Below, one piece after another: positions 9,391 to 13,124 of a stretch of DNA of 52,569 nucleotides. Below the pieces are notes generated by a model. The model was given only the letters and a program-made list of their open reading frames with translations, did not search any database and was not told where the DNA came from. Each line of letters starts with the position of its first letter. Positions within the stretch are counted from its first letter, which is position 1. The stretch is from the NCBI RefSeq assembly GCF_011947225.1, contig NZ_JAATVW010000026.1, positions 1 through 52,569 of the forward strand. The letters are read 5' to 3'. This DNA comes from Planosporangium flavigriseum. GTDB lineage: Bacteria; Actinomycetota; Actinomycetes; Mycobacteriales; Micromonosporaceae. A program made the position numbers and the translations under genes.

Positions 9391-10458
9391 ATGGACCGAC
9401 CGACGCTGCTGCCGCACCTGCGCCCGCTGTGGCGCGACCGCACCACCCTCCAACTCGGCACCGACCCCGAACGGGCCGTTATCGTCGAGTTCACCCAACC
9501 CGTCTCAGCCCGCATCCTCGGCCTGCTCGACGGGGCCCGCACCGAACGTGCGATCTTCGCCGACGCCGCCGCCCTGGGCGTCTCCGCCGATCAGGTCACC
9601 GCGGTGATCAGTGCCTTACGCCAGGCCGGCGTACTGATCGGCGCCCACGCGCTGATGCCGCGCGGCCTTCCCAACGCCCAGCGTCGCCGGCTCAGCGGAG
9701 AGGCCGCCGCGCTCGCGATGCGCCGGCTACCGGCCATGGGGACCGCCGCGGCCCCACCGGAGAGCACCCCTGCCCAACTGCTGCGCCGCCGCGCCGCGGC
9801 GCGCGTACTGATCACCGGCCAGGCTCGGTTGGCCGCGCCGATCAGCACGGCCCTCGCCGCGGCCGGGGTGGGCCATCTCGCGGTCCGCGTACCCGGCCCG
9901 GTCGCGGGCGACGACGTGGCCCCCGGCGGGTTGTCGGCGGCGGACGTCGGCCGGCCCGCCGCCGAGGCGGTACGGGAAGCGGTTGCCCGGGCCGCCCCTG
10001 GCGTCGACCTGACCCCGATCGGCCCCTCGGACGCGTCGCTGGTCGTACGGGTCGGCCACGACGCCACCCCGGCCCCGCTCGCCGCCCAGGCGTACGCCCG
10101 GCGCCGCCTGCCGCACCTCACGGTGGCGGTACGCGACGGCTCGATCGTCATCGGCCCGTTCGTACCGCCGGCCGGCTCACCGTGCCTGGCCTGCCTCGAC
10201 CTGCACCGGCGCGACCGCGACCCCGCCTGGGCGGCGCTCACGGCGCAGTTGGCCACGGAGCCACCGCCAACGCAGGCCTGCGCGGCCACGACGACGCTGG
10301 TCGGCGTCGGGTACACCGTCGCCGAGATCTTGACGTACCTGGATGGAGGCTGTCCGCGTACCCGGGGGGCTACGATCGAGATCGACGTCAGCTGCGGCGA
10401 AAGGCGGCGCAGTTGGCAGGCGCATCCGCGGTGTGATTGTCGGCGAATTCGCCGATAG
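9391..10458 (+). CDS. ThiF / TOMM cyclodehydratase-like leader-binding protein
   Basis: The 355-residue protein starts at ATG. Its first 90 or so residues look like a winged-helix, RiPP-recognition-like domain (VIVEFTQPVSARILGLLDGA then ADQVTAVISALRQAGVLI). A Rossmann-like region follows (AAARVLITGQARLAAPISTAL), then the family segment IGPFVPPAGSPCLACLDLH and a C-terminal CDCRR. The CLAC and CDC pairs would bind one structural zinc. The ATP-binding glycine and arginine residues of active ThiF/E1 enzymes are not clear, so it may be a non-adenylating partner. No precursor peptide, YcaO or oxidase gene is nearby. It is followed by the ABC1 kinase gene 28 bp downstream. The function is unknown. 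Confidence 0.8.
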   Translation: MDRPTLLPHLRPLWRDRTTLQLGTDPERAVIVEFTQPVSARILGLLDGARTERAIFADAAALGVSADQVTAVISALRQAGVLIGAHALMPRGLPNAQRRRLSGEAAALAMRRLPAMGTAAAPPESTPAQLLRRRAAARVLITGQARLAAPISTALAAAGVGHLAVRVPGPVAGDDVAPGGLSAADVGRPAAEAVREAVARAAPGVDLTPIGPSDASLVVRVGHDATPAPLAAQAYARRRLPHLTVAVRDGSIVIGPFVPPAGSPCLACLDLHRRDRDPAWAALTAQLATEPPPTQACAATTTLVGVGYTVAEILTYLDGGCPRTRGATIEIDVSCGERRRSWQAHPRCDCRRIRR

Positions 10459-10486
10459 TTGCCGAGACCAGGTAAGAATTGACGCG

Positions 10487-11800
10487 ATGACCGACATCCC
10501 CCGCCGAGCCGTCAGCCGTTCGGCCAAGCTGGCGTCGCTTCCGATCGGGTTCGCCGGCCGAGCAGCCCTGGGCCTGGGCAAGCGAGTCACCGGCATAGCC
10601 TCTGAAGTGATCTCGGCCGAGGTGCAGCAGCGCACCGCAGAGCACCTGTTCAGCGTGCTCGGGCAGCTCAAGGGCGGCGCGATGAAGTTCGGCCAGGCGC
10701 TGTCCGTCTTCGAGGCGGCGCTGCCCGAGGAGATGGCCGGGCCCTACCGGGCCGCGCTCACGAAGTTGCAGGAAGCCGCGCCGCCCATGCCCGCCGCGAG
10801 CGTCCACAAGGCGATCGCCGCCTCCCTGGGCGCCGACTGGCGTGAGCATTTCCGCGAGTTCAACGACAAACCCGCCGCGGCGGCGAGCATCGGGCAGGTG
10901 CACCGCGGGGTGTGGTCCGACGGCCGTGCCGTCGCGGTGAAGGTGCAGTACCCGGGCGCCGGCGAGGCGCTGGTCTCCGATCTCAACCAGCTCGGCCGGC
11001 TAGCCAACCTGTTCCGGGTCATCCAGCCCGGCCTCGACGTCAAACCGCTGGTCAGCGAGTTGAAGGCGCGCGTGGTCGAGGAGCTGGACTACGAACTGGA
11101 GGCGTCCGCGCAGCGGACCTTCGCGGAGGCCTACGACAGCGACGACATGATCTACGTGCCGCCGGTCGTCGCCTCCTCGGCGCGCGTGCTGGTCACCGAG
11201 TGGATCGACGGGACTCCCCTGGCTGACGTGATCAGCTCGGGAACGGAGGCTGAGCGCGACGCCGCCGGGGAGCGGATGGCGCTGCTGCACTTCTCGGCGC
11301 CGCACCTGACCGGTGGGCTGCTGCACGCCGACCCGCACCCGGGCAACTTCCGGATCCTTCCCGACGGCCGGCTCGCCGTGCTCGACTTCGGCGCGGTCGC
11401 CCGCGTACCCGCCGGGATGCTGGAGCAGATCGGGCGGCTGTCCCGGCTCGCGCTCGACGGTGACGCCGAAGGGGTGCTGGAAGGGCTGCGGCTGGAGGGT
11501 TTCGTCAAGCCCGACGTCGAGGTCGACGCGCAGGCGATCCTCGACTACCTGGTGCCGATCCTCGAACCCATCGCGGTCGAGGAGTTCCGGTTCAGCCGAG
11601 CCTGGCTGCGGGCGGAGGCGACCCGGCTCGCCAACCCGCGCAGCGCCGCGTACCAGCTTGGCCGCAACCTCAACCTGCCGCCGCCGTACCTGCTGGTGCA
11701 CCGGGTCACGCTCGGCTCGATCGGCGTGCTGTGCCAACTGGAGGCGAGGGCCCGGTACCGGGAGGCCGTCGAGGAGTGGCTGCCCGGCTTCGCGGGCTGA
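10487..11800 (+). CDS. ABC1/AarF (UbiB/ADCK-like) atypical protein kinase
   Basis: The 437-residue protein has all the hallmarks of ABC1 kinases: the KxGQ motif KFGQALS (about residues 66-72), the Ala-rich loop AAAASIGQVHRG replacing the P-loop, the VAVKVQYPG lysine, the catalytic loop HADPHPGNF, and the metal-binding LDFGAV. There are no transmembrane helices. The start is ATG, with a weak agg-containing ribosome binding site. Family members act on isoprenoid or lipid metabolism or as ATPases; here the substrate is unknown. The gene is convergent with the whiB7 operon, with a 13-bp hairpin between them. The mycobacterial counterpart Rv3197 also neighbours whiB7. Confidence 0.94.
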   Translation: MTDIPRRAVSRSAKLASLPIGFAGRAALGLGKRVTGIASEVISAEVQQRTAEHLFSVLGQLKGGAMKFGQALSVFEAALPEEMAGPYRAALTKLQEAAPPMPAASVHKAIAASLGADWREHFREFNDKPAAAASIGQVHRGVWSDGRAVAVKVQYPGAGEALVSDLNQLGRLANLFRVIQPGLDVKPLVSELKARVVEELDYELEASAQRTFAEAYDSDDMIYVPPVVASSARVLVTEWIDGTPLADVISSGTEAERDAAGERMALLHFSAPHLTGGLLHADPHPGNFRILPDGRLAVLDFGAVARVPAGMLEQIGRLSRLALDGDAEGVLEGLRLEGFVKPDVEVDAQAILDYLVPILEPIAVEEFRFSRAWLRAEATRLANPRSAAYQLGRNLNLPPPYLLVHRVTLGSIGVLCQLEARARYREAVEEWLPGFAG

Positions 11801-11818
11801 AGACCGCTATATAACGGC

Positions 11819-11854
11819 GGCGTTCCCGCCCCCCCCGTCGAGGGCGGGAACGCC
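11819..11854. terminator. Convergent terminator between ABC1 kinase and the whiB7 operon
   Basis: Perfect 13-bp arms GGCGTTCCCGCCC (11819-11831) and GGGCGGGAACGCC (11842-11854) surround a C-rich loop. There is no T tract, in line with other hairpins in this window. Confidence 0.75.
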
Positions 11855-12128: not shown

Positions 12129-12509
12129 TCAGGCCGCCACTCCCGCGGCGACGGCCGCGGCGCGAGCCGCAACCTCGACGCGAAGCGTTGCGTCCCGGGC
12201 GACATCCTCCTTACGCGGACGGCCACGCGGCCGCTTGCGCGGCACGACCGCCCCGCGCTCGAAGATCTCGCCACCCCAGACACCCCAGGGCTCGGCTCGC
12301 TCCATCGCGCCGGCCAGGCACTCCACGCGCAGCGGACAATCCGTGCACAGGGACTTGGCCAGCTCCAGCTCGGCGGGGGCGTCGGAGAACCACATGTCCG
12401 GGTCGAACGTGCGGCACGGAAGCTCCGACTTCACTCCGGGCGCCGAAGCGCGAAGACGATCCGCATCCACCTCGACAGTCACGTCGAGGGGCGCCGTCGC
12501 CAGACTCAT
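12129..12509 (-). CDS. whiB7: WhiB7, [4Fe-4S] redox-sensing transcription factor
   Basis: The 126-residue protein has the four WhiB cysteines at 32, 55, 58 and 64 (PCRTFDPDMW, then LCTDCPLRVECLAG). The turn WGVWGGEIFERG is at about 75-86, and an AT-hook RKRPRGRPRK at 91-100 distinguishes WhiB7 from other Wbl proteins. WhiB7 is known to bind SigA and AT-rich sequence upstream of -35 elements and to activate intrinsic antibiotic resistance genes. I chose the ATG at 12509 because GAGAGGT lies just upstream; an in-frame GTG at 12518 falls inside that ribosome binding site. The gene is preceded by a terminator-containing leader and followed by a coupled 83-codon gene. Confidence 0.95.
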   Translation of the reverse strand: MSLATAPLDVTVEVDADRLRASAPGVKSELPCRTFDPDMWFSDAPAELELAKSLCTDCPLRVECLAGAMERAEPWGVWGGEIFERGAVVPRKRPRGRPRKEDVARDATLRVEVAARAAAVAAGVAA

Positions 12510-12561
12510 TCCGGTCACCTCTCTTTCTGCTCGTGGTCTCGATTACTCGTGGTAAAAGACT

Positions 12562-12598
12562 GAGGCCGCGGATCCCGGTTAGCGGGTTCCGCGGCCTC
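12562..12598 (-). terminator. Rho-independent terminator in the whiB7 leader (attenuator)
   Basis: On the minus strand GAGGCCGCGGaaCCCG pairs with CGGGatCCGCGGCCTC around a 5-base loop, with an internal mismatch. AGTCTTTT follows directly. It sits about 52 bases upstream of the whiB7 ATG and about 27 bases after the stop of the upstream 98-codon ORF, so it must be read through to express whiB7 from that promoter. WhiB7/WblC attenuation by such a terminator is known in mycobacteria and Streptomyces. Confidence 0.85.
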
Positions 12599-12658
12599 GA
12601 GGTGAGCCGGTGGTCTAGGTGGTTCTAGACCGGCCTTCCTCGAGGTGGAACTCCGCGG
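12589..12658 (-). promoter_or_regulatory. Candidate antiterminator pairing in the whiB7 leader
   Basis: Two self-complementary blocks occur twice: CCTCGAGG at 12638-12645 and again at 12595-12602, and CCGCGG at 12653-12658 and 12589-12594. On the transcript the upstream pair can pair with the downstream pair, giving 8 + 6 bp with a 7-base bulge. The downstream partners are the 5' arm of the terminator, so the two structures exclude each other. Nested inside is a perfect 7-bp hairpin (GGTCTAG with CTAGACC, 12612-12631) that contains the leader ORF stop codon. Confidence 0.6.
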
Positions 12659-12921
12659 ACATCGCCGAGAGCCGTTACGGCCTCGACGCTGCCCTTGCCC
12701 TTGCCCTTGGCCATGAGCCAGTACGTGGACGCAATGCGGCCTTCGAACTGAGCTCGCTGGACCTGGATGTACGACACGCCGACGCCCAGTCCGCCGCCGA
12801 CAGTCGCGTGGCCCACGGTCGCGTGGGCGGCGGAGGCGGGAAGCAGGCCGGGAACACCGGACACCGGAGCGCAGGCAGCAGGCAGCGCCGACGGTCGCCT
12901 ATTGATGGTCATCAGCTCCAC
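12625..12921 (-). CDS. whiB7 leader ORF (98 codons)
   Basis: GTG at 12921 lies 8 bases after AGGAGG, the best ribosome binding site in the region. The alternative is ATG three codons later with no site of its own. The product starts VELMTINRRPSALP, has a small Ala/Gly/Val-rich middle with an HATVGHATVG duplication, then SYIQVQRAQFEGRIASTYWL, MAKGKGKG, and a Pro/Arg-rich end (VRGVPPRGRPV). Third codon positions are mostly G or C, so it looks translated. It matches no family I know. Its position just upstream of the attenuator, ending in the antiterminator stem, suggests that its translation controls whiB7. Whether the peptide itself acts is open. Confidence 0.65.
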   Translation of the reverse strand: MELMTINRRPSALPAACAPVSGVPGLLPASAAHATVGHATVGGGLGVGVSYIQVQRAQFEGRIASTYWLMAKGKGKGSVEAVTALGDVRGVPPRGRPV

Positions 12922-12952
12922 GTCGTCCACCTCCTGTCTGCTCTCGTTGCGA

Positions 12953-12989: not shown

Positions 12990-13124
12990 GCCGTCCACAG
13001 TCGCTTCCGACGGGAAAATCCCATCATCCGCTACCGCGGGCGTCCAAAATGATCCGTCGTTCGCAGGGCGTGCCAGCAGGCTATTCCCAGCCGCGAGGGC
13101 CGCGCAAACGATTTTCCGAAAGAG

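Follow-up and report, generated by a model that had tools for sequence, protein, structure and literature searches.

The window, by which we mean the whole stretch of 52,569 nucleotides that was analysed, comes from the 5.7-Mb genome of Planosporangium flavigriseum. On its minus strand a UvrD-type helicase gene is followed by a leader and then by whiB7 (Table 1). Judged by its sequence, the gene presumably controlled by the leader is a whiB7 orthologue. An AT-hook-like stretch, RPRGRPRK, can be read in its translation; a role of the AT-hook in WhiB7 is covered in the accessible part of PMC3905903. The nearest named WhiB7 relatives belong to a Dactylosporangium-labelled MAG, to Planosporangium mesophilum and to other Dactylosporangium. 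There are six WhiB matches in the own genome: the whiB7 query itself, and others at E 1.3e-10 or weaker. An in-frame GTG at 12518 is listed as an alternative start of the gene.

Table 1. Coordinates of the leader elements and the two flanking genes
Feature	Position	Strand	Basis
UvrD-type (UvrD-like) helicase gene	15269-13125	minus	ORF list and domain match
Likely whiB7 promoter, GAAAAT-CGT-TTGCGC-18 nt-TAGCCT: WhiB7-box GAAAAT 13116-13111, 3-nt spacer, -35 TTGCGC 13107-13102, 18-nt spacer, -10 TAGCCT 13083-13078	13078..13116	minus	motif fit
Ribosome-binding site AGGAGG of the uORF	12930..12935	minus	sequence; 6/6 match
uORF, GTG start, 98 codons, TAG stop 12627-12625	12625..12921	minus	ORF and SD
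Antiterminator 5' strand: TCCGCGG 12659-12653, bulge AGTTCCA, CCTCGAGG 12645-12638	12638..12659	minus	in last uORF codons
Nested stop hairpin: GGTCTAG 12631-12625 / CTAGACC 12618-12612, outer GGCC/GGCT	12605..12635	minus	fold and covariation
Antiterminator 3' strand: CCTCGAGG 12602-12595, CCGCGGA 12594-12588	12588..12602	minus	sequence and fold
Predicted intrinsic terminator hairpin	12562..12598	minus	fold; pairing across 62 leaders
U-tract UCUUUU	12554..12559	minus	sequence
whiB7, WhiB family	12129..12509	minus	ATG 12509; PF02467, E 9.5e-14

Sequence and folding place a predicted Rho-independent terminator between the leader ORF (uORF) and whiB7. In its stem GAGGCCGCGGA (12598-12588) pairs with TCCGCGGCCTC (12572-12562), and AGTCTTTT (12561-12554) follows. 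The fold of 12610-12549 has an energy of -33.8 kcal/mol (z -5.9), and none of 200 dinucleotide shuffles was as good. The U-tract of the window is short and interrupted, with no more than 4 consecutive T after the hairpin, and a run of at least 5 occurs in 69 of the 82 family leaders. The 82 Micromonosporaceae leaders comprise the one in the window, L008 and 80 named loci (L036-L115). A pattern of GAGG followed by the terminator arms was found in every one of them.

The uORF was looked for in the same leaders as a frame having a Shine-Dalgarno (SD) match of at least 5/6, at least 40 amino acids and a stop codon within the antiterminator loop. Such a frame is present in 82/82 leaders, compared with 2.4 on average and at most 4 for shuffled upstream sequence. 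Among 117 diverse leaders a uORF with an SD ends in the loop in 105 (shuffled mean 3.2). The stop codons chosen by the script in the family are TGA (67), TAA (9) and TAG (6). L185 could not be anchored, and for L142 and L143 the script came up with no uORF whose end lies in the loop; all three are possible layout variants.

The promoter elements in Table 1 fit the WblC motif, GAAAWY 3 nt upstream of the -35 element, as given in the part of PMC7157823 at hand. Upstream of the uORF the strict pattern occurs in 8/82 Micromonosporaceae leaders (the window included), so that most family leaders are without it, and in 26/107 diverse leaders; the shuffled mean was 0.0 for both sets. A WhiB7-type autoregulated promoter, with GAAAWY 3 nt before the -35 element, is thus likely from the motif. 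Its position implies a leader of roughly 560 nt, with a putative start site beyond 12946. The interval 12509..12946, which the original prediction had taken as the leader, is therefore too short and leaves the likely promoter outside.

The end of the uORF and the 5' arm of the terminator share sequence with an antiterminator. This consists of 7 + 8 bp, the upstream strand having a 7-nt bulge, and the fold of 12665-12586 (-43.9 kcal/mol, z -5.5) was not equalled by any of 200 dinucleotide shuffles. Nested within it is a hairpin with a 7-bp core and a 4-bp outer extension, which carries the TAG codon of the uORF in its 5' arm GGTCTAG, just as had been proposed. All 11 bases of the terminator 5' arm (12598-12588) are common to the antiterminator 3' strand (12602-12588). 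This means that the two folds cannot coexist. Direct reading and folding thus agree with the original prediction of a whiB7 leader with a mutually exclusive terminator and antiterminator, and the elements lie where it had placed them. It had also counted two copies each of CCTCGAGG and CCGCGG. The former does occur twice (12645 and 12602); the latter occurs three times in 12990-12495 (12658, 12594 and 12571), the third copy being the 3' arm of the terminator.

Folding of the growing RNA gave the antiterminator when the RNA end lay between 12595 and 12570, and the terminator after it had passed about 12565. In the full leader without a ribosome, the terminator was favoured by about 2.9 kcal/mol (-74.9 versus -72.0 kcal/mol with the antiterminator forced). 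With a ribosome upstream, 14/14 antiterminator bases were paired at an RNA end of 12580, compared with 10 when the ribosome was omitted. Placing a ribosome over the stop codon (12644-12612) left 2/14 of these bases paired at the same RNA end and none at full length, and the terminator kept all 11. The footprint 12650-12612, suggested beforehand as a check, left 6 antiterminator bases at 12580 and likewise none at full length. In the computed folds, then, a ribosome at the end of the ORF does let the terminator form, as had been supposed. The companion claim, that a ribosome stalled earlier frees the upstream copies for pairing, is borne out at the RNA end 12580; the full-length minimum-energy fold was the terminator in every case, the upstream ribosome included. 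Since equilibrium favours the terminator, antitermination would have to rest on the order of folding, with the antiterminator held kinetically.

These folds suggest the following mechanism. RNA polymerase would start at the WhiB7-activated promoter near 13080 and transcribe the uORF, followed by a translating ribosome. Once at the stop codon of the uORF, the ribosome would cover about 12644-12612, so that the stop hairpin is melted and the inner part of the antiterminator 5' strand is hidden. With this part hidden, 12598-12588 would fold into the terminator, and transcription would halt before whiB7; the terminator would be the default in uninhibited cells. A ribosome that is delayed or halted anywhere within the first ~85 codons, or that never loads, would leave the antiterminator 5' strand free. 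The antiterminator would then form first, as its two strands are synthesized ahead of the terminator 3' arm, and the polymerase could read through into whiB7. Completion of the uORF by the ribosome thus probably decides the fold. By analogy with the published leaders discussed below, antibiotics may be the signal.

Within the family the pairing strands are well kept, as the original prediction demanded of relatives. The upstream CCTCGAGG is conserved in 82/82 leaders and the downstream copy in 81/82, the single variant, CCTTGAGG, still pairing by G-U. The outer upstream CCGCGG is kept in 77/82 and altered in the other 5. A covariance model, R1, for which 48 of the 82 leaders were used, matches 196 of 200 family genomes, and the four without a match (G005, G025, G059 and G088) are exactly those without WhiB7 at E 1e-20. 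In the few cases among the 196 that were compared by eye, the match lies directly 5' of whiB7. The own genome has one strong match, others being at E 1 or worse. Two matches were obtained in 9/200 genomes. Eight of these were re-searched: in 5 of them the second match is the same element read on the other strand, and in 3 it is weak and lies elsewhere. For the ninth, G030, the leader L130 shows a match on the opposite strand. Neither the eight re-searched genomes nor the G030 leader yielded a convincing second attenuator. It should be mentioned that the three weak second matches (L248, L250 and L253) have E values of 0.001 to 0.004.

Covariation within Micromonosporaceae was uninformative for the long arms. 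These hardly vary there, and covariation was therefore sought beyond the family, in 120 genomes picked by hand from match lists (30 of the same family, 90 of other families of the order and class). The first automatic terminator picker found none in 2/120 leaders and chose unlikely far hairpins in 6 more, and it was replaced by an anchor based on the arms. This anchored the terminator in 117/120; L175, L185 and L232 were dropped from later counts. At an E value of 0.01, R1 finds the element on the right strand in 67/90 non-family leaders. The first model alignment, A2, contained wrong-strand matches caused by the palindromes, and alignment A3 was therefore built from chosen sources: 62 of the 100 searched (10 family, 52 others; 23 GTDB families), the other 38 being left out.

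In A3, 87.1% of the cells of the antiterminator and stop hairpin are paired, compared with 73.2% after shuffling, and the covariation score is 0.342, compared with 0.130 for shuffled and at most 0.075 for slid alignments; A3 was fitted to the antiterminator structure and so favours it, a bias that is limited, though not abolished, by the slides and shuffles. Changes on both sides were observed in 20/26 pairs overall: 6/8 in the inner antiterminator, 3/7 in the outer antiterminator and 7/7 in the core of the stop hairpin. The weakest part is the outer 4 pairs of the stop hairpin, with 75.3% of cells paired. For the terminator, 95.5% of cells are paired across the 62 leaders, and 6/15 pairs show both-side changes. 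This class-wide covariation of the antiterminator and stop hairpin also supports the claim of conserved pairs, and with it the mechanism originally put forward.

A model-free count of the 17 shared-arm bases points the same way. In 87 non-family leaders a mean of 11.8/17 can pair upstream (6.7 shuffled), and the single-leader shuffle test reaches the 5% level in 29/87, 6/87 being below the shuffled mean. The family leaders have a mean of 13.4 (7.6 shuffled) and reach this level in 11/30. When duplex energies of own and swapped strands were compared, the own duplex was among the best 5% in 9/87 non-family and 12/30 family leaders, and worse than the median in 29/87 non-family leaders. The result outside the family may arise because many families share similar strands. 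Taken together, the covariation supports one attenuator architecture, the stop-codon hairpin included, across many actinobacterial families.

The same data bear on two other explanations. The hairpin would be a plausible intrinsic terminator and, the upstream helicase gene having the same orientation, it might be nothing but the terminator of that gene, with the repeats incidental. We regard this as very improbable, since the hairpin lies more than 500 nt past the helicase stop codon and is preceded by a conserved uORF and a promoter of the WhiB7 type, and since the antiterminator and stop hairpin, needless for a plain terminator, covary. Alternatively, CCTCGAGG and CCGCGG could be DNA sites of a dimeric regulator instead of RNA pairing strands. 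Each is a perfect palindrome, and in the family CCTCGAGG never varies upstream and hardly does so downstream. Other families, however, hold non-palindromic complementary strands at these places, e.g. CCCTGGAG and CTTCAGGG, with compensatory changes, and the position of the element is tied to the uORF stop codon, which makes such sites extremely improbable. The leader is very probably the Micromonosporaceae version of the whiB7/wblC ribosome-mediated transcription attenuator.

The last codons of the uORF seem to be under selection at the RNA level. The C-terminus PPRG[R/K]PV is present in 81/82 family uORFs, the exception being L073, in which the script chose another frame. These 81 leaders share CCT for Pro -6 and CGA for Arg -5, with third positions that sit inside the inner antiterminator helix. 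Five genes of the window seldom use either codon (CCT, 3/139 Pro; CGA, 12/198 Arg). The third positions of Gly -9 and Gly -4 lie immediately beyond the helix, and there all four bases occur. This pattern supports RNA-level selection, and common descent contributes to the counts. In addition, the codons GTT CCA at 12651-12646, in the antiterminator bulge, are near-invariant though uncommon: Val -8 is GTT in 74/82 family leaders (5/185 Val in the window genes) and Pro -7 is CCA in 81/82 (4/139 Pro).

The body of the uORF contains a further element. A QGTG[L/M/V][S/P]-like motif recurs in the uORF bodies of several families. Among 187 uORFs from 28 families, with the last 12 residues removed, QGT is found in 11/28 families (mean 2.5 and maximum 6 in 100 shuffles), for a motif that was chosen after the sequences had been seen; in an unbiased count of triplets in the uORF bodies, TGL, QGT and GTG are highest. 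The codons of the motif vary between leaders. Pairing of this region with the stop hairpin was considered and rejected, as it was little better than that of swapped pairs (-15.8 for own and -14.4 for swapped pairs, the former lower in 19/34). The motif raises the question of whether the uORF body is a stalling peptide that senses one specific amino acid or antibiotic and not a general slowdown of translation. This seems unlikely: the aligned stretch of the window, by eye, is FEGRIAST, the distance of the motif from the stop codon varies, and published whiB7/wblC leaders, as far as the accessible text goes, respond to many inhibitors and to amino acid starvation. A broader idea, still doubtful, is that the whiB7 uORF is an ancient nascent-peptide element whose QGTG-like motif might tune stalling or polymerase-ribosome coupling, with GTT-CCA as a second timing element.

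The layout recurs outside the family. The leaders of f33, which we take to be Streptomycetaceae, align with the same layout as the window leader. Those of f8, presumably the mycobacterial family, differ in having a terminator stem of the GGCCACGG type where one is found, and of the 8 searched, 4 give weak R1 matches (E 0.0016 to 0.01). We know of no test of a whiB7 attenuator in Micromonosporaceae. The wblC/whiB7 attenuator was reportedly described in a Streptomyces host by Lee, Lee and Roe in 2022 (Mol Microbiol 117:179).

Ribosome-mediated attenuation at whiB7/wblC in actinobacteria appears in the available portions of PMC10727445, PMC11550727 and PMC13393426, all of which cite Lee, Lee and Roe 2022. 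The mechanism being published (PMC10727445, PMC11550727), the original prediction was right that such attenuation is known in other genera. Its layout was indeed read from the sequence, but is common to the family and, in outline, to the class. As far as these sources describe it, the attenuator of Lee, Lee and Roe 2022 resembles that of the window in the gene, the uORF, the Rho-independent terminator and an antiterminator overlapping both uORF and terminator; the strand sequences and the uORF peptide are different, a comparison in which the published figures were not matched base by base. The mycobacterial whiB7 leader (Dinan 2014, PMC4128351) is likened to ours in its uORF with an SD and its stem-loop attenuation. 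In the portion available, the uORF begins about 10 nt after the SD, attenuation occurs at a conserved stem-loop with a U-rich tail, and the start is about 350 nt upstream of whiB7.

Two more distant systems can be compared from partial texts. In M. tuberculosis the ilvB1NC leader (PMC13236596) forms the terminator when about 26 nt are masked by a ribosome at the end of the uORF, on its stop codon, and the antiterminator on stalling; unlike the window leader, it senses branched-chain amino acids via regulatory codons, and the gene and the RNA are different. The Streptomyces ARE5 ABCF leaders are5sc/tiaA (PMC12421871) also combine an antibiotic-responsive uORF with terminator and antiterminator folds. 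However, their uORFs are very short, stalling by LSAP antibiotics occurs at the start codon, and other genes are the targets.

No Rfam family reaches its gathering score in the leader, and in the whole window only a tRNA elsewhere does so. Two sub-threshold Rfam matches over the leader (22.9 of 79 bits and 11.9 of 50 bits) were taken as chance. A covariance model is now available for this element, which lies below every Rfam gathering score. Open-licence literature mentioning whiB7 and Micromonospora, judged by title and the start of the abstract, contained nothing on this leader. In actinobacteria WhiB7 is the regulator behind broad tolerance to ribosome-targeting drugs, and the leader is a candidate for tests in harmless soil actinomycetes.

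Finally, the neighbourhood on the other side of whiB7 should be mentioned. An ABC1-type kinase-like gene (10343-11800, plus strand) is convergent with whiB7; its top NCBIfam match is the macrolide-binding ATPase MABP-1, at 485 bits and below the cut-off of 800. A ThiF-like protein is encoded at 9391-10458 (plus strand); it scores weakly, below the cut-off, against a TOMM precursor leader-peptide-binding model (32 of 36.9 bits). Between the convergent ends of the ABC1 gene and whiB7, a GC-rich inverted repeat, GGCGTTCCCGCCC / GGGCGGGAACGCC, is seen by eye at 11819-11854, and is perhaps a terminator shared by the two genes.
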